DNA of 34,483 nt from Oscillospiraceae bacterium. GTDB lineage: Bacteria; Bacillota; Clostridia; Oscillospirales; CAG-272. The position numbers and the translations under genes were made by a program. The notes beneath the pieces were generated by a model. That model saw only the letters and a program-made list of their open reading frames with translations, made no database searches and had not been told where the DNA came from. The stretch is taken from NCBI GenBank assembly GCA_015063305.1, contig SVUJ01000005.1:1-34483 (forward strand). The letters are read 5' to 3'. Below are positions 7,186-13,756 of this stretch, one piece after another (position 1 is the first letter of the stretch; every line of letters begins with the position of its first letter).

Positions 7186-8946
7186 TTACATCTCCGAGTA
7201 CATCTTATACAACTCGCTGTAGAGTCCGCCCTTTGCCACAAGCTCACTGTGCGTACCGCTTTCCTCTATTCCGTTTTCCGTGAGAACGAGTATTCTGTCG
7301 GCGTTTTTGATCGTTGTGAGTCTGTGGGCTATGGTGAATGTGGTTCTACCGCGCGCAAGCGTTTCAAGCGAGGTCTGTACCAGCTTTTCGCTTTCGTTGT
7401 CAAGCGCGCTGGTCGCCTCGTCAAGAATGAGTATTGGCGGGTCTTTGAGGAAGACACGCGCGATGGAAATTCTCTGCTTCTGTCCGCCCGAAAGCTTGAC
7501 GCCGCGCTCTCCCACGTAGGTGTCGTAACCGTCGGGAAGAGAAGTGATAAATTCGTGAGCGCCCGCAAGTACGGCTGCCTTTTCTATTTCCTCATCGGTG
7601 GCGTTCTGCTTACCGTAAGCTATATTTTCTTTGATGCTTCCCGAGAAGAGATACACGTCCTGCGCAACAACTCCGATGTGTGCTCTGAGCGATGCGGTCG
7701 ATATATCCTTGATATCCACACCATCTATAAGTATAGCGCCCGAGCTCACCTCGTAAAATCTCGGGATAAGTGAGCAAAGCGTGGTCTTGCCGCCGCCCGA
7801 CGGGCCAACGAGAGCAATACTCTCACCGGATTTGACCTTCAGGTCAAGGTGTGAAAGAACGTTTTTGTTGTTGCTTTCATAAGAGAAAGAAACGTCCTTG
7901 AACTCTATCTTGCCGTCTACCTTTTCGATGGTCTGCGCGTCGATAGCGTCCTTTATGTCGGGCTCGATATCCATTATCTCGCAAAAGCGCTCGATGCCGG
8001 TTATTCCTCGCTGGAACTGCTCCCCAAATTCCACTATTCTTCGTATCGAGGTGAGCAGGGTGGTAACGAACATAAGATATGCCACGTAGTCTGCCGCGCT
8101 TATCTTGCCGTTGAGCATAAATATAGCGCCCGCGACCACGACTACGATATACATAAGACCGTCAAAGAAGCGTGTGGAGGAGTGGAATCCCGCCATTATA
8201 TGGTATACCTTGGTCTTTATCTTAAGGAACTTTTTGTTTCCCTTATCAAACTTTTCTTCCTCAAGGGCTTCGTTGGCAAAGGATTTTACAACCCTTATTC
8301 CAAGCAGGCTGTCCTCTATTTGTGAGTTGAGCTCGCCCACCTGAGCGCGGGATTCCTTGAATCCCGCCTTCATTCTTCTGTTGAACATCATAAGCACTAT
8401 TATCATCGGGGGAATGATAGAGAAGACTATGAGGGTGAGAGGGATACTCATCGTGCAGAGTATGATAAACGAGCAGATTATCTTTATAGCGGCGATAAAG
8501 AATTCCTCGGGACAGTGGTGCGCGAATTCGGTGACGTCAAAAAGGTCGCTCGTTATACGCGACATAAGAGTGCCCACCTTGGCGTTGTCGTAGTATGAGA
8601 AGGATAGCTTCTGCAAGTGCCCGAAGAAATCCCTTCTCATATCGGTCTCTATCTTAGTACCCATAATGTGACCTACCGAGGACATATAATAGTTCGCGGC
8701 GGTGTCTATCAATCGCAGGAAAAGATACAAAATGCCAAAGCCAACTATCATTTTAAGCGTAAGCGACATCACCTCGGCGGTCGCGGCATCTGTTATCTGT
8801 CTTACGATAAGAGGGAGTATAAGCTCGCAAACCGTGGTCAGAGAGGCGCAGAGCAGGTCTACTATCATTATCCATTTGTATTTTTTGTAATAGGGCAAAA
8901 ATCTTTTTATCAACCCTATGCTGTTACCTTTTTTTCTTTTGGGCAT
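7186..8946 (-). CDS. ABC exporter, fused membrane and ATPase domains
   Basis: Half-size type IV exporter of 586 residues that should work as a homodimer in the cytoplasmic membrane. The N-terminal domain (about 25-310) has six membrane spans. The ATPase domain (about 345-586) is complete: Walker A GPSGGGKTT (381-389), Q429, signature LSGGQ (485-489), Walker B ILILDE (505-510) and the switch histidine H541. It resembles the MsbA/LmrA and lipid/multidrug group; the substrate is not predictable. GGAGAA lies 6 nt before the ATG. It has its own promoter (8985-9013) and terminator (7081-7117), so it is a single-gene unit, divergent from mgsA. No partner half-transporter is adjacent. Confidence 0.95.
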   Translation of the reverse strand: MPKRKKGNSIGLIKRFLPYYKKYKWIMIVDLLCASLTTVCELILPLIVRQITDAATAEVMSLTLKMIVGFGILYLFLRLIDTAANYYMSSVGHIMGTKIETDMRRDFFGHLQKLSFSYYDNAKVGTLMSRITSDLFDVTEFAHHCPEEFFIAAIKIICSFIILCTMSIPLTLIVFSIIPPMIIVLMMFNRRMKAGFKESRAQVGELNSQIEDSLLGIRVVKSFANEALEEEKFDKGNKKFLKIKTKVYHIMAGFHSSTRFFDGLMYIVVVVAGAIFMLNGKISAADYVAYLMFVTTLLTSIRRIVEFGEQFQRGITGIERFCEIMDIEPDIKDAIDAQTIEKVDGKIEFKDVSFSYESNNKNVLSHLDLKVKSGESIALVGPSGGGKTTLCSLIPRFYEVSSGAILIDGVDIKDISTASLRAHIGVVAQDVYLFSGSIKENIAYGKQNATDEEIEKAAVLAGAHEFITSLPDGYDTYVGERGVKLSGGQKQRISIARVFLKDPPILILDEATSALDNESEKLVQTSLETLARGRTTFTIAHRLTTIKNADRILVLTENGIEESGTHSELVAKGGLYSELYKMYSEM

Positions 8947-8984
8947 CTATCTTCTCCATTCAAAACATATTAAAAGCAAAGACA

Positions 8985-9013
8985 ATTTTAACATAAGCAA
9001 AAAGGTTTGTCAA
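8985..9013 (-). promoter_or_regulatory. Promoter of the ABC exporter
   Basis: Minus strand TTGACA (9013-9008), 17-bp spacer ending TATGT, TAAAAT (8990-8985). It lies back to back with the mgsA promoter. Confidence 0.87.
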
Positions 9014-9028
9014 GGGTAGAGAAATATG

Positions 9029-9057
9029 TTGATTTATTTTGAGAAGTGTGGTAAAAT
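9029..9057 (+). promoter_or_regulatory. Promoter of mgsA
   Basis: TTGATT (9029-9034), 17-bp spacer ending TGTGG, TAAAAT (9052-9057). Confidence 0.85.
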
Positions 9058-9080
9058 GGATAAAAAGAGGGGTGAGAAAT

Positions 9081-9554
9081 ATGAGTAATAATGAAAAATT
9101 GGAATTTATTATGGCGGCGCAGAAAAATATAGCGCTTATAGCTCACGATAATAAAAAGCAGGAGCTTATCGATTGGTGCTTGAAGAACAAGGAGATCCTT
9201 GAGCATCACTTTCTTTGCGGAACGGGAACTACCGCGAAGATGGTGGCAGAGAGAACCGGGCTTCCCGTCAGAGGATTTAATAGTGGACCTTTAGGGGGAG
9301 ATCAGCAGATAGGCGCTCGGATAGTTGACGGAAAGATAGACATAGTGATATTCTTTTCCGATCCGCTTACGGCGCAGCCGCACGATCCCGATGTAAAGGC
9401 GCTTCTTCGTATAGCGCAGGTGTATGATATACCGATGGCTAATAATAAGGCGACCGCGGATTTTATAATCACCAGCCCGTATATGGACGGTACATATACG
9501 CACGACCTGAGCGATTTTAAGAAGATAGTCAGCGAGAGGGCAAAGAGCTTATAA
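9081..9554 (+). CDS. mgsA: Methylglyoxal synthase
   Basis: Converts dihydroxyacetone phosphate to methylglyoxal and phosphate, a bypass of lower glycolysis used when sugar phosphates accumulate. The 157-residue protein starts at the ATG after GAGGGGTGAG; a frame extending back to 9039 crosses the promoter. Family blocks are in order: IALIAHDNKKQELIDW (residues 18-33), GTGTTAKM, SGPLGGDQQIGARI with the catalytic Asp, and IFFSDPLTAQPHDPDVKALL. They align closely with the E. coli enzyme. The gene has its own promoter and is followed by the tRNA-Ser unit. I see no clear terminator directly after it. Confidence 0.96.
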   Translation: MSNNEKLEFIMAAQKNIALIAHDNKKQELIDWCLKNKEILEHHFLCGTGTTAKMVAERTGLPVRGFNSGPLGGDQQIGARIVDGKIDIVIFFSDPLTAQPHDPDVKALLRIAQVYDIPMANNKATADFIITSPYMDGTYTHDLSDFKKIVSERAKSL

Positions 9555-9604
9555 AGAGAGATCGTTTGCGGCTCGGAAAAATTCATATAAAAGAAAAAAT
9601 ACCC

Positions 9605-9633
9605 TTGACAAATAAATAATACTGTGGTAAAAT
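9605..9633 (+). promoter_or_regulatory. Promoter of the tRNA-Ser unit
   Basis: TTGACA (9605-9610), 17-bp spacer ending TGTGG, TAAAAT (9628-9633). Confidence 0.87.
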
Positions 9634-9634
9634 A

Positions 9635-9669
9635 ACGAGGATGCTTGATCCGAGATCAAGCATCCTCGT
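9635..9669 (+). other. Perfect 16-bp hairpin at the tRNA-Ser start site
   Basis: Two perfect 16-nt arms (ACGAGGATGCTTGATC and its complement) flank a 3-nt loop (CGA). The arm begins 2 bp after the -10, so the predicted start site falls inside the 5' arm. GTGTAGTTTTATA follows, a poor T-run, so it could be a weak attenuator or a DNA palindrome acting at the promoter. Confidence 0.75.
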
Positions 9670-9696
9670 GTAGTTTTATATGTAAACAGTATGCAT

Positions 9697-9808
9697 CACG
9701 GAGGGTTATATCGGCTTTGCCGATGAACCGCGCAGTGGATTCTCTTGCCTACGGCAACCGAGCCACTTCGATAACCCTCCGTGTTTACACGGAGGGTTAT
9801 CGAAGTGG
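9697..9808 (+). promoter_or_regulatory. Self-complementary tRNA-Ser leader
   Basis: Positions 9763-9784 are a perfect 22-nt inverted copy of 9787-9808, which is 4 nt of leader plus the first 18 nt of the tRNA; only two bases separate the arms. The same inverted copy can instead pair with 9697-9709 (13 bp, CACGGAGGGTTAT), enclosing hairpins 9710-9724 (ATCGGC/GCCGAT) and 9745-9757 (TTGCC/GGCAA). The leader therefore has two exclusive folds, one of which blocks the tRNA 5' end. Whether it regulates anything is unknown. Confidence 0.75.
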
Positions 9809-9879
9809 TCATAACGAGGCGGTCTTGAAAACCGTTTGGGAGCAATCCCACGTGGGTTCGAATCCCACACCCTCCGCCA
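9791..9879 (+). tRNA. tRNA-Ser(UGA)
   Basis: Class II tRNA of 89 nt with encoded CCA. Acceptor arms are GGAGGGT and ACCCTCC with discriminator G. The anticodon loop CTTGAAA gives anticodon TGA, reading UCA. The long variable arm is TGGGA-GCAA-TCCCA, and the T arm is GTGGGTTCGAATCCCAC. The 5' 18 nt are also part of the 22-bp palindrome with the leader. A terminator follows directly. Confidence 0.97.
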
Positions 9880-9881
9880 AC

Positions 9882-9919
9882 AAAAAAGTCCATTTGTCTT
9901 GAGACAAATGGACTTTTTT
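9882..9919 (+). terminator. Terminator of tRNA-Ser
   Basis: An 18-bp perfect stem (AAAAAAGTCCATTTGTCT and complement) with a 2-nt loop, ending in TTTTTT. It acts on either strand. Confidence 0.88.
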
Positions 9920-10094
9920 GAATGATGTTTGCCTTCGGCAAATGATATTGGCTTTGCCAATGATTACGGCTTCGCCTAATGATGTGTGCCTAACGGCACA
10001 TTGAGGCAAACATCGCATCATTGCGACCAACGGGAGCAACATCATTTTGAGCGAGGCGAAAAACATCATATCGCTGCAAGGCGATGCATCATTT
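9920..10094. repeat. Hairpin array B (AATGATG/CATCATT linkers)
   Basis: Same design as array A but with a different linker. The left half has AATGAT-type linkers before hairpins TTTGCC/GGCAA(A) (9928-9941), TTGGC/GCCAA (9948-9960), CGGC/GCCT-like (9967-9977) and TGTGCC/GGCACA (9985-10000). The right half has CATCATT-type linkers between less regular hairpins. Outer segments ATGATGTTTGCC and GGCAAACATC pair. It begins at the last T of the tRNA-Ser terminator. An open frame at 10084-10287 starts in it but contains the next promoter and is not a gene. Confidence 0.75.
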
Positions 10095-10170
10095 GAAATA
10101 CAAGCGGTTTTGTCATATAATCGATTTAGAAATATCGAAAGAAGAACTGTTGTTTATCCACTCCAAACCA

Positions 10171-10199
10171 TTGACAAAATGGCAAAAATATGGTAATAT
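10171..10199 (+). promoter_or_regulatory. Promoter of the aldolase/TPP operon
   Basis: TTGACA (10171-10176), 17-bp spacer ending TATGG, TAATAT (10194-10199). The leader is about 93 nt with no obvious riboswitch. Confidence 0.85.
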
Positions 10200-10298
10200 A
10201 AACTGTATTTTTGTGTGCTCGCCGTATGATTTTCAGAAAAAGGCAAATCCTAACATTATTATCGATATCTTGGATCACATAATGTAAAGGAGAAGACC

Positions 10299-11903
10299 AT
10301 GGGTGAGATAAGGCTTTTGGACTGTACGCTTAGAGATGGCGGATATATCAACGATTGGAATTTCGGTCACGATAATCTGGTCAACGTGTTTGAGCGTCTT
10401 GTAGATGCGGGCGTTGATATTATTGAGGTGGGGTTTCTCGATGAGCGCCGCAAGTTTGATATAAATCGCAGCATTATGCCCGACACCGAAAGTGTCGGCA
10501 GAATATTCGGCGAGCTTGACAGAAAGAGCTCTATGGTCGTTGGTATGATAGATTACGGCACTTGTTCGCTTTCCAATATCTTACCTGCCGAGGATAGCTT
10601 TCTTGACGGAATTCGCGTCATTTTCAAAAAGCATCTGCGAGAGCAGGCTATGGAGTACTGCGGAGAGCTCGGAGCACTTGGATATAAGGTCTTCGCTCAG
10701 CTCGTATCTGTAACCAGCTATGATGACGGCGAGATGCTTGACCTTGTGCGCCTTGCGAACAAGTATAAGCCCTATGCCGTATCAATGGTGGACACCTACG
10801 GACTTATGCACCAGAACAATCTGATGCACTATTTCAAGCTTCTTGACGATAATCTTGACCCGGCTATCGGTCTTGGATACCACGCGCACAACAATTTTCA
10901 GATGGGATACGCCAACTGTATCGCAATGCTTTCGAACAAGATAGAGCGGACTATGATAGTTGACGGCTCTGTTTACGGAATGGGGAAGAGCGCGGGTAAC
11001 GCGCCGACCGAGCTTATAGCTATGCATATGAATGCCTCGCTTGGCAAGGATTATCGCATCTCGCAAATGCTTGAGGCGATAGACTCAAGCATCATTCAGT
11101 TCTATGCCCCTGCGGCGTGGGGGTACAATATGTTTTATTACCTTGCCGCGTCGAACGACTGTCACCCGAGCTATGTGGCATATCTGATGGACAAGCGTAC
11201 GCTCTCTGTCAGGTCTATCAACGAGATACTCGGAAGGCTTGAGGGCGAGAAAAAGCTCCTTTACGATAAGAACTATATCGAGAAGCTTTACCTTGACTAC
11301 GAAAAGAACGAGATAAATGATGAAGAAGACAGACTTGCTTTAGTAAAAGTGCTTAAGGGTAGAAAAATTCTTATCATCGGCCCGGGTGCTACTATGGAGT
11401 CGGATGCCGCTCGGGAGAGGATACTTGATTACGTCAGAGAAGAGAAGCCAACGGTCATATCGGTGAATTATATTCCGAAGTCATTTCGCCCCGATTATGT
11501 GTTTTTGAGCAATTCAAAGCGATATCTTCAGCTTGCCTCAAAGCTCAGCCGCACGAGGCAGATGATAATTGCAACCTCTAATCTTACAGAAACCACCGAT
11601 GGGGCGTTTGCCTACCGCCTTAATTACGGGTCGCTGATAGACCTTGATACCGATATTATCGACAACTCTCTGGTGATGCTGCTCAAAGCGCTTATCGGCA
11701 TTGGAATTGACAAGGTGAGCTTGGCGGGATTTGACGGATATTCCGCTATCAAACAGAACTATGTCCGCGAGGATATGGAATATGACTTTATTAAGGACAA
11801 GGCAAAATATCTGAATTCATACGTGAGGGGATTTCTCCGAAGCGTTAAGGATAAGATAACGGTTGAGTTTTTGACAAGATCGCGCTATAGCGATCGACTA
11901 TAA
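10299..11903 (+). CDS. Aldolase/metallolyase fused to MptE-like domain
   Basis: A 534-residue two-domain protein. Residues 1-290 form a DRE-TIM barrel of the HMG-CoA lyase/4-hydroxy-2-oxovalerate aldolase group: LLDCTLRDGG (6-15) with R12, D13 and metal ligand D8, EVGF (43-46), metal ligands H195 and H197 in YHAHNNF, and DGSVYGMGKSAGNAPTE (222-238). Residues 352-530 form a second Rossmann-like domain starting KILIIGPGATMES, resembling the MptE-like/DUF115 domain of glycan and pterin enzymes. Such fusions with a TPP enzyme next door occur in surface-polysaccharide loci, from memory. Here there are no glycosyltransferases, so the product is unknown. AAAGGAG precedes the ATG by 7 nt. It is probably one transcript with the next gene (50 bp). 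Confidence 0.85.
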   Translation: MGEIRLLDCTLRDGGYINDWNFGHDNLVNVFERLVDAGVDIIEVGFLDERRKFDINRSIMPDTESVGRIFGELDRKSSMVVGMIDYGTCSLSNILPAEDSFLDGIRVIFKKHLREQAMEYCGELGALGYKVFAQLVSVTSYDDGEMLDLVRLANKYKPYAVSMVDTYGLMHQNNLMHYFKLLDDNLDPAIGLGYHAHNNFQMGYANCIAMLSNKIERTMIVDGSVYGMGKSAGNAPTELIAMHMNASLGKDYRISQMLEAIDSSIIQFYAPAAWGYNMFYYLAASNDCHPSYVAYLMDKRTLSVRSINEILGRLEGEKKLLYDKNYIEKLYLDYEKNEINDEEDRLALVKVLKGRKILIIGPGATMESDAARERILDYVREEKPTVISVNYIPKSFRPDYVFLSNSKRYLQLASKLSRTRQMIIATSNLTETTDGAFAYRLNYGSLIDLDTDIIDNSLVMLLKALIGIGIDKVSLAGFDGYSAIKQNYVREDMEYDFIKDKAKYLNSYVRGFLRSVKDKITVEFLTRSRYSDRL

Positions 11904-11953: not shown

Positions 11954-13756
11954 ATGAAGATAAAGCTTGCGAAATACGTTGCCGAATTTTTAGTGCGGCA
12001 GGGAATTGAGGACTGCTTTATGGTTACGGGCGGAGGGGCTATGCACCTCGATGACGCCCTTGGACACGAGAGGGGATTGCGGTGTATTTTTAATCACCAC
12101 GAGCAGGCGTGCTCGATAGCCGCCGAGGGATATACGCGTATGACGAATAAGCTCTGCGCCGTCTGCGTCACGAGCGGACCGGGCGGAACTAACGCTATCA
12201 CGGGCGTTATGGGCGCTTGGCTCGATTCGATCCCTATGCTTGTCCTTTCGGGACAGGTGAAGAGAGAAACTACCGCGTGGAGCTGTGCCGAGCTTGGTCT
12301 GCGCCAGCTCGGAGATCAGGAATTTGACATTATAAATTCGGTATCAAATATGACAAAATACGCGGTGATGGTAACAGATCCGCTTGATATCGCGTACCAT
12401 CTTGAAAAGGCTGTTTACCTTGCGACAAGCGGAAGGGGAGGTCCTGTATGGCTCGATATCCCGCTTGACGTGCAGGGCGCGTTTGTTGAAACCGATGCGC
12501 TCCGTCACTTTAACGCCGATATAGAATATCCTTGGCAAGTGCCAAGGGTTACAGAAAGCCTTGCGAAAAGTATTCTTGAGAAGATAAGAAAAGCTAAAGC
12601 ACCCCTTATCCTTGCGGGTACGGGCATACGGCTTGGCGGAGCTGAGGAAAAGCTCCTTGCGCTGCTTGATAAGCTTCGCATACCCGTGGTAACGGCTTGG
12701 AACGCGGGCGATACGGTCGCTTACGACAACCCTTATTTTGCGGGAATGCCGGGAACTGTGGGAACTCGCGCGGGAAATTTTGCGGTACAGCAGTGTGATC
12801 TGCTGCTCAGCCTTGGCTGCCGTTTGAATATCCGTATGATAGGGTATAATCGCTATGATTTTGCAAGGAATGCGTATAAGATAATCGTGGATATCGACCC
12901 GAGAGAACTTATAAAGCCAACGATACGCCCCGATATGCCGATAAATGCCGATGTGAGCGACCTTCTCGATAAGCTTCTTGAAGGGGATTATACTCCTGTG
13001 GATTCTCATTCAAGGTGGCTTGATTGGTGTCGTGAGCTTGTTTACAAGTACCCCGCGGCGTGTGAAGAATACCGTCACGGGGGAGCGCCGATAAATCCCT
13101 ATATATTTATTGATAAGCTCTTTGAGCGGCTGACGCCCGATGACCGCATAGTTTGCGGAAACGGAAGCGCGTGTGTCGTTACCTTTCAGGCGGCTAAGAT
13201 AAAGCAGGGGCAGAGAATGTTTACAAATTCGGGTTGTGCGGCTATGGGGTACGGACTACCCGCGGCGCTTGGCGTAGCGGTGTCTGACAACACTCGGCGC
13301 ACGGTCTGCATCGACGGTGACGGAAGCCTGATGATGAATCTTCAGGAGCTTGCAACCGTGGCGCACAATAAGCTCAATATAAAGCTTTTCATTATAAATA
13401 ATAACGGATATCACTCGATACGGCAGACACAGACAAACCTCTTCGGCTCACCTCTTATAGGTGTTGACGGAAAGAGTGGCATAGGCTTTCCCGATTTTGA
13501 GAAGCTATGTGACGCGTTCGGTCTTGCTTATTACAGATTTGACTGTGAGAGAGATGCTGATGACGTAATAGCCGAGGTCCTTGCTTCCGACGGCCCTGCC
13601 GTCTGCGAGGTCGTTGTTGATACCAAGCAGAATTTCGCACCCAAATCGTCCTCAAGGGTACTGCCCGACGGACGCATCGTGTCACCCTCGCTAAACGATA
13701 TGTCGCCATTTCTTGACCGCGAGGAATTCAGGCGCATTACCGAAACAAAATTTTAA
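11954..13756 (+). CDS. TPP-dependent acetolactate synthase-like enzyme
   Basis: A 600-residue thiamine-diphosphate enzyme with the three-domain layout of acetolactate synthase. The N-terminal pyrimidine domain has the activating E50 in FNHHEQAC and SGPGGTNAITG (74-84). The central domain spans about 200-340. The C-terminal diphosphate domain has GDGS (455-458) and the Mg-binding run to INNNGYHSI (482-489). The tail SSRVLPDGRIVSPSLNDMSP and FLDREEF is typical of TPP enzymes found in polysaccharide loci rather than IlvB. No regulatory subunit follows; the ACT protein at 13844 is of a different family. Together with the aldolase it probably makes or breaks a C-C bond of a 2-oxoacid. The substrate cannot be stated. 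Confidence 0.88.
   Translation: MKIKLAKYVAEFLVRQGIEDCFMVTGGGAMHLDDALGHERGLRCIFNHHEQACSIAAEGYTRMTNKLCAVCVTSGPGGTNAITGVMGAWLDSIPMLVLSGQVKRETTAWSCAELGLRQLGDQEFDIINSVSNMTKYAVMVTDPLDIAYHLEKAVYLATSGRGGPVWLDIPLDVQGAFVETDALRHFNADIEYPWQVPRVTESLAKSILEKIRKAKAPLILAGTGIRLGGAEEKLLALLDKLRIPVVTAWNAGDTVAYDNPYFAGMPGTVGTRAGNFAVQQCDLLLSLGCRLNIRMIGYNRYDFARNAYKIIVDIDPRELIKPTIRPDMPINADVSDLLDKLLEGDYTPVDSHSRWLDWCRELVYKYPAACEEYRHGGAPINPYIFIDKLFERLTPDDRIVCGNGSACVVTFQAAKIKQGQRMFTNSGCAAMGYGLPAALGVAVSDNTRRTVCIDGDGSLMMNLQELATVAHNKLNIKLFIINNNGYHSIRQTQTNLFGSPLIGVDGKSGIGFPDFEKLCDAFGLAYYRFDCERDADDVIAEVLASDGPAVCEVVVDTKQNFAPKSSSRVLPDGRIVSPSLNDMSPFLDREEFRRITETKF

Follow-up and report, generated by a model that had tools for sequence, protein, structure and literature searches.

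The leader of a tRNA-Ser(UGA) gene in the window (the whole 34,483-nucleotide stretch of Oscillospiraceae DNA that was analysed) carries a perfect 22-nt palindrome, one arm of which runs into the tRNA itself, and this leader is one copy of a recurrent module, here named B, for which comparison of the copies favours the reading of a DNA hairpin element attached to tRNA ends over that of a serine-tRNA riboswitch. The best account of the leader, and one that I consider reasonably likely, is a template-switch palindrome laid on top of such a tRNA-end hairpin element, with an antisense arm that probably came from a DNA-copying accident rather than arising as a regulatory switch. An earlier note on this DNA had suggested a possible regulated switch, with a template-switch palindrome tolerated by the cell as the alternative, and it is the alternative that fits better.

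The tRNA-Ser(UGA) locus

All of the parts lie on the forward strand. A probable promoter at 9605-9633 (TTGACA-17-TAAAAT, from a consensus scan by pattern matching only, with 11 of 12 matches and TG before the -10) is followed by a 16-bp hairpin at 9635-9669 (arms 9635-9650 and 9654-9669, a 100% inverted repeat) that, given the position of this pattern-matched promoter, is expected at the 5' end of the transcript. Next come a sense copy of the tRNA 5' junction at 9697-9709 (CAC plus GGAGGGTTAT, a 100% direct repeat of 9788-9800 that occupies the same place in relatives and serves as the copy arm of the module), hairpin 1 directly after GGAGGGTTAT at 9710-9724 (ATCGGC-TTT-GCCGAT, from the computed fold and an alignment of 27 leaders) and, again from the alignment, a second arm with hairpin 2 at 9733-9764 (CAGTGG-ATTC-TC-TTGCC-TAC-GGCAA-CC-GAGCC). 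The antisense arm at 9763-9784 is the perfect reverse complement of the partner arm at 9787-9808, so that two arms of 22 nt, 100% complementary, face each other across a 2-nt gap, the partner consisting of 4 nt of leader and tRNA nt 1-18. The tRNA-Ser(UGA) occupies 9791-9879 (ARAGORN; Rfam RF00005, 56.6 bits), and a terminator-like hairpin follows at 9881-9920. As an alternative partner, 9771-9783 of the antisense arm matches the leader copy 9697-9709 over 13 nt at 100%. The 22-nt palindrome, the 13-nt alternative pairing and the 16-nt hairpin all lie exactly where the earlier note had put them, and its statement that the antisense covers the acceptor 5' strand and continues into the D-arm agrees with the ARAGORN boundaries, which place 18 nt of the partner arm inside the tRNA and 4 nt upstream of it.

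The palindrome is well beyond chance, the longest arm in 20 first-order Markov simulations of the window being 12 (loop up to 10), and it is the longest of the eight hairpins in the window with arms of at least 14. Across the assembly, the longest exact complement between upstream sequence (200 nt, except for two tRNA-Asn near contig ends, where 50 nt were used) and tRNA nt 1-30 is 18 here and 4-8 in the other 36 of 37 tRNAs. The earlier note had also asked whether this gene has a double, and no second tRNA-Ser(UGA) gene was found among the 37 tRNAs of the draft assembly (22 contigs, 94.6% complete, from which a copy could have been lost). The genes around the tRNA are ordinary: an ABC transporter (7186-8946), an MGS-like domain protein (9039-9554), an HMGL-like protein (10299-11903) and a TPP enzyme (11954-13756).

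Several other hairpins lie near these tRNA genes. Directly after the tRNA terminator, 9921-10090 holds an array of small hairpins with ATGAT spacers, and the terminator of a tRNA-Ser(GGA) at locus L205 is followed by a sequence with a similar start; a Gut-1 RNA match over 9885-9953 is sub-threshold (31.6 bits against a gathering score of 50). Judged by eye, L040, L053, L060 and L066 share with window positions 9635-9669 a stem-loop at the expected transcription start, in unrelated sequences.

A recurrent module before serine tRNA genes

The window leader from 9697 to 9784 is a single copy of B, whose plan is a copy of the tRNA 5' end, hairpin 1, GTGGATTC-hairpin 2-GAGCC, an antisense copy and then the tRNA. 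In its fuller form the module often starts with a motif like ACAGTATGCATCA, followed by the tRNA 5'-end copy (GGAGNNNTAT), hairpin 1 and often an extra inserted hairpin, and it ends with GCGAAGYGG-ATTC-hairpin 2-GAGCC, the antisense arm, a short palindrome and the tRNA. It precedes tRNA-Ser(UGA/CGA) genes, or 5' halves of them, in gut Clostridia and is tandem in some; contig C16 of the window genome itself has a tRNA-Ser(CGA) with two tandem leader units of this plan.

A core-pattern scan of the genus gave 25 places in 17 of 30 genomes, of which 18 run into a tRNA-Ser 5' end, three into a further copy, three are contig ends and one is unrelated, and the same scan of the family gave 22 places in 17 of 246 genomes (15 into a tRNA-Ser 5' end, three into a further copy, two at contig ends and two unrelated). 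The pattern matches L076, L130 and L139 were rejected as module copies, being unrelated sequence, and since two family genomes had unrelated matches only, 15 of the 246, not 17, truly hold the module by this pattern. A covariance model, R1, was built from 25 leaders including that of the window, which makes the window's own match circular, and excluded L032 and L072, which carry another palindrome; it matches in 28 of the 246 family genomes, two of them through the tRNA-Cys copies described below. Fifteen of its loci were read (L244 and L261 not letter by letter), and places in G205, G206 and G244 were left out. Among 295 genomes of the order R1 matches five, with the full module (E 0.001) solely in four of the window's own family; the fifth, G416, was rejected, as only the palindrome part matches there, at a place that looks by eye like a terminator. 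A stricter pattern matched 15 stretches of named genomes; every title gives metagenome-assembled Clostridia or Oscillospiraceae and, where it states a source, the gut of goat, sheep, yak, roe deer or water deer. Presence is thus patchy, as for a hairpin repeat element (17 of 30 in the genus, 28 of 246 in the family), with many of the drafts incomplete and single absences uncertain. The constancy of GGATTC and GAGCC in the 27-row alignment, A1, is uninformative because the rows were picked by a pattern requiring both, and R1 also reached copies off this pattern (GCTCC in L245; GGATTT and AAGCC in L246). A viral origin of the module was considered and rejected, as a tighter core pattern gave two matches in viral contigs, neither with a tRNA context; a looser pattern, GTATGCATCAYGGAG, hits 48 stretches in viral contigs, which were left unread.

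Whether the module travels may be judged from its similarity across genera. Best pairs of leaders from genera g1 and g89 reach 95% identity, while a gene lying 2 kb away from the tRNA of the window shows 75% identity in G029 (same genus), 67% in G088 and 70-76% in two short pieces of G016. This gene was matched in three of 11 genomes and in none of those of g89; for g89 the leader and gene comparisons come from different genome pairs. B therefore appears either to spread sideways or to be strongly held, and from these identities I favour sideways spread.

Mirror-image copies at tRNA-Cys

The same core is also found beside another tRNA, on its other side. Searching with R1 and with a pattern allowing any two bases before GGATTC uncovered units adjoining tRNA-Cys in two genomes only, G279 (L258, two units) and G176 (L272, three units), which limits the best account of the window leader. 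Here the units stand reversed on the 3' side, in the order tRNA-Cys 3' end, a terminator-like hairpin whose stem enters the tRNA end, an antisense copy of the 3' end and hairpin 2, and L258 continues beyond hairpin 2 with hairpin 1 and then a sense copy of the tRNA-Cys 3' end. L258 further has a 24-nt perfect palindrome with a 3-nt loop that includes the tRNA-Cys 3' end, and L272 a 44-nt inverted copy of that end at 75%; G209, which shares its genus with G279, has a unit of this type that is displaced by about 0.8 kb from tRNA-Cys and adjoins no tRNA end.

The cores of the serine-type copies L132 and L142 agree with that of one L258 unit at 73/85 and 71/85 positions (84-86%), and the L132-L258 score of 117 compares with at most 18.5 in 1000 shuffles. 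The serine and cysteine arms differ, each matching its local tRNA. One core thus occurs at more than one kind of locus, 5' of tRNA-Ser and 3' of tRNA-Cys, as is typical of a hairpin repeat element, and it is mainly because this common core is mirrored at tRNA-Cys with locally matching arms that I take B for a DNA element rather than for a leader RNA of serine tRNA genes.

A probably derived perfect arm in the window

Among 36 distinct serine-type copies, selected by a downstream tRNA-Ser 5' end (a complete tRNA with encoded CCA follows in 17), the unbroken antisense run from tRNA nt 1 is 4 nt long in 29, 5 nt in one, 6 nt in two, 2 nt in two and 1 nt in one, the last (L248) being a parsing fault in which CTCC was assigned to the core. 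The window is the sole copy beyond 6, with a run of 16 nt, or 18 if the last two bases of GAGCC are counted, and its longest exact complement in tRNA nt 1-25 is 18, against at most 10 elsewhere. All of the other 35 arms are imperfect with respect to their own tRNA, and this, in place of a tree that would give direction, is why the imperfect arm is taken as ancestral; as the other runs mostly span nt 1-4 and none passes 6, the perfect arm of the window looks derived, consistent with quasipalindrome template switching. L253 and L254 have GCGCAGTGGATTC in common with the window, with CCACTTCTCAAATCTCTCCGTG or a close variant in place of the window's CCACTTCGATAACCCTCCGTG, and their antisense arm is imperfect, with an extra T and other mismatches. 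A change from such an arm to that of the window would exchange several bases in a single step for exact antisense, which would be the mark of quasipalindrome template switching, a process for which a role in creating and maintaining RNA stems has been argued (PMC8794818).

The singular state of this arm also raises the question of whether a snap-back chimera perfected it during sequencing or assembly of this contig, since the perfect arm occurs in the window only, the genome assembly is a draft in 22 contigs and the 15 named module stretches are all metagenome-assembled. The palindrome is, however, embedded in a contig of 122,693 bases and flanked on either side by ordinary genes, and imperfect versions recur across many assemblies, so I regard an artefact as very improbable.

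Computed folds, paired changes and the question of a switch

One case for regulation comes from the folds. Folded alone, positions 9640-9786 pair the antisense arm with the leader copy (9697-9709; -62.6 kcal/mol), while in the best fold of 9640-9879 (-115.4 kcal/mol) the antisense has the 5' strand of the tRNA as its partner and the leader copy has the 3' acceptor strand; the two mutually exclusive folds predicted earlier are thus present in computation, and the pair of exclusive folds, one blocking output, that defines a leader riboswitch is found on computed folds only. The joint fold lies about 19.5 kcal/mol below leader and tRNA apart, the largest gap of 17 module leaders, and because it is nearly trivial that leader and tRNA fold together about as well as apart or better, plain leaders served as the control. 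With 100-nt leaders, a length that removes the copy arm of long modules, the mean probability that the tRNA 5' strand pairs with its own partner is 0.47-1.00 in all 12 plain leaders, 0.93-0.99 in all eight leaders with 5' halves or D-loop inserts, and at most 0.21 in 16 of 17 module leaders (L248, at 0.85, is the exception), so that the strand is off its own partner in 16/17 module leaders versus 0/12 plain ones. With 230-nt leaders it is at most 0.39 in 17 of 17 modules, and among the 12 plain leaders at least 0.9 in six and below 0.5 in six. Six leaders were also folded at growing length: when the transcript ends 10 nt short of the tRNA, the antisense arm pairs with the leader copy, and by tRNA nt 6 it has left it largely in five of the six and only partly in L009, which stays mixed.

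These are the observations that a cis-acting RNA switch would explain, in which copy-antisense pairing would be the ON state that frees tRNA-Ser, antisense-tRNA pairing would be the OFF state that blocks RNase P, and a signal would set the balance; the serine-type modules are also upstream and on the tRNA's own strand in the contexts read. Yet the growing-length folds are not uniform, since besides the mixed L009, L036 and L142 leave the copy fold before the tRNA begins and L145 is back in it at full length, and all of these figures are equilibrium energies that leave out kinetics, RNase P, modification and proteins. Mirror copies lie 3' of tRNA-Cys, where a leader switch makes no sense, other copies lead orphan 5' halves, and complete tRNA-Ser(UGA) genes in the same genus (L015, L019 and L022) have plain leaders, a situation that the earlier note had itself named as refuting its idea. 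All of this, together with a deep arm seen in the window alone, counts against a dedicated switch. Nor was any known leader switch found by Rfam covariance models over 8900-10700 (E up to 1) or at six related loci (E up to 0.01).

Paired changes, which had been suggested as a check, were counted in A1, whose 27 leaders are distinct but whose kinship inflates all of the following measures. In the tRNA-antisense stem 91.8% of cells are paired and the cells changed on both sides number 23 versus 8.2 in shuffles, although pairs changed on both sides are not above shuffles (4 versus 3.5, reached in 262 of 500); in the copy-antisense stem the values are 83.0% paired, 14 versus 5.0 cells and 6 versus 3.8 pairs (33 of 500 shuffles reach this). 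Hairpin 1 has 98.1% of cells paired with 2/6 pairs changed on both sides and hairpin 2 has 93.1% with 6/7, giving jointly 95.4% paired, 59 versus 14.9 changed cells and 8 versus 5.4 pairs. In L145 and L176 the acceptor strand reads GCAGAGG and the antisense has changed along with it. Compensatory changes in relatives are therefore present above shuffles by cell count, but they fit RNA selection and template switching alike and do not decide between the two, with the wider warning that strong covariation at a palindrome need not imply a regulatory RNA.

Taken together, I consider a signal-driven switch unlikely, and the template-switch palindrome on a tRNA-end element stays the preferred account. 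For that account, the near-constant depth of 4 nt and the common hold on the tRNA 5' strand set a limit, as they could reflect RNA selection. In the computed folds the tRNA 5' strand is captured by B leaders but not by plain leaders, which makes slower tRNA maturation plausible for the whole module family; the effect would be strongest in the window.

Integrases and tRNA 5' halves

The tRNA-Ser genes of this clade also serve as integrase targets. In relatives, tRNA-Ser 5' halves that end at the anticodon loop, each with about 130 nt, stand in arrays before tRNA-Ser genes, and the same junction adjoins a tyrosine integrase in the viral contigs L162 and L167 (in L162, PF00589 falls below and PF14659 above the curated cut-off). 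Genera g52 and g1 share one stretch of 141 nt without a difference, and L031 is a 5' half with a hairpin at the point corresponding to hairpin 1. All of this would suit a reading in which phages entering the anticodon loop of tRNA-Ser left upstream 5'-half copies that decayed by hairpin insertion, the antisense arm being neutral debris or a means of neutralising the 5' copy. This reading, however, explains neither the antisense arm nor the module 3' of tRNA-Cys, and at the window no integrase scar was found, the leader having only the 10-nt tRNA copy GGAGGGTTAT and no 5' half, although halves occur in relatives. I therefore rate a leftover of integrase duplication as improbable; if B is instead the tRNA-end element preferred here, orphan 5' halves bearing it would result where a phage split a tRNA that already carried B. 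Integration that leaves behind a 5' piece of the tRNA is known but minor, Islander counting 159 such islands against 3760 with a 3' fragment (PMC4383910).

Other partial tRNAs occur as well. L037, L038, L040, L043, L054 and L146 have at least one unit of tRNA-Ser 5' half plus about 130 nt, often at contig ends and in some cases with direct repeats such as TTTCTAACA or TTCTCGCA; these loci resemble phage attachment scars without the phage. In L068 and L173 the tRNA-Ser(CGA) 5' strand GGAGAGA is mismatched in part to the 3' strand (CCCACTCC), as though recombination had exchanged its 5' half. A third kind of insert, about 100 nt long with a GGACGTT start and a CAGGA or CAGGG end, sits in the D-loop of tRNA-Ser 5' copies at L014, L018, L027, L061, L131 and L173. 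In the window genome, tRNA-Leu(UAG) is preceded by one 162-bp unit (L208, G000:C4:94823-94984) and tRNA-Leu(CAG) by two (L209, C16:73622-73945), and in each unit 22 nt repeat the tRNA 5' end as far as the D-loop, the remaining 140 nt being other sequence; comparable units occur in other genus members and in G058 and G065, and no match was found in phage records. By eye, the third insert and the tRNA-Leu units share a CGAGCGC-hairpin-GCGAG-AAGGAG pattern.

A proposed history and why it matters

The sequence of events that I propose starts with a short DNA hairpin module that resides at tRNA-gene ends, its arms being copies of the adjoining tRNA end, and that would move between genera; this mobility is deduced from distribution, as no protein, intermediate or filled/empty pair in the same strain was seen. 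The arms would be made and re-matched during replication, when the palindrome prompts template switching (snap-back copying), and in the window a recent switch of this kind would have made the antisense arm, imperfect elsewhere, an exact copy of 22 nt. Once transcribed, the leader would first fold copy to antisense, after which the antisense could invade the tRNA 5' strand, and this invasion may slow or lower tRNA-Ser(UGA) maturation without any sensor-driven switch, at a cost that the cell tolerates. A bolder version, which I consider possible but less likely than not, is that B is a DNA hairpin element that needs no protein and can be retargeted: it would settle at one or the other end of a tRNA gene, rebuild its arms by snap-back template switching from any tRNA end that it encounters, act as an antisense brake in cis and co-evolve with the tRNA.

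If the proposed account is right, small hairpin elements can use tRNA ends as homes and swap their arms for local sequence, and an essential tRNA comes with a natural range of leaders whose antisense is perfect in some and imperfect in others. It would then be testable how much antisense in cis a pre-tRNA can bear and still mature, and whether long stems are kept perfect by template switching rather than by selection.

Comparison with known systems

In the titles and abstracts searched, with most subscription journals outside that scope, no comparable tRNA-end hairpin element is described, and in the stretches scanned with Rfam only tRNA scored above gathering. Matches below that score, among them one to Thr_leader at 27.5 bits against a gathering score of 55 and on the minus strand over the terminator, were rejected because the families fit neither the place nor the host. 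T-box and other leader riboswitches are similar in having a leader with two exclusive folds that involve tRNA sequence, whereas B precedes the tRNA gene itself and matches no such family. With tRNA-targeted integrative elements, for which anticodon-loop crossovers are one known class of integration and Islander rejects islands under 2 kb (PMC4383910), B has in common the partial tRNA 5' copies upstream of an intact tRNA; the units here, however, measure only about 160-200 bp, which leaves no room for an integrase, and the window leader is without a 5' half. Quasipalindrome template-switch mutation (PMC8794818) copies one arm onto the other and so makes an imperfect repeat perfect. That likeness explains the perfect arm of the window, but not the common hairpin core or its presence at two tRNAs.

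Rickettsia palindromic elements are short hairpin repeats scattered in or beside genes, with no known adaptive function. The mitochondrial RHE (PMC2800124), DHE and GC clusters are alike in these respects. B differs from all of these in its homes, the 5' end of tRNA-Ser and the 3' end of tRNA-Cys, and in its outer arms, which are copies of the local tRNA in both sense and antisense.
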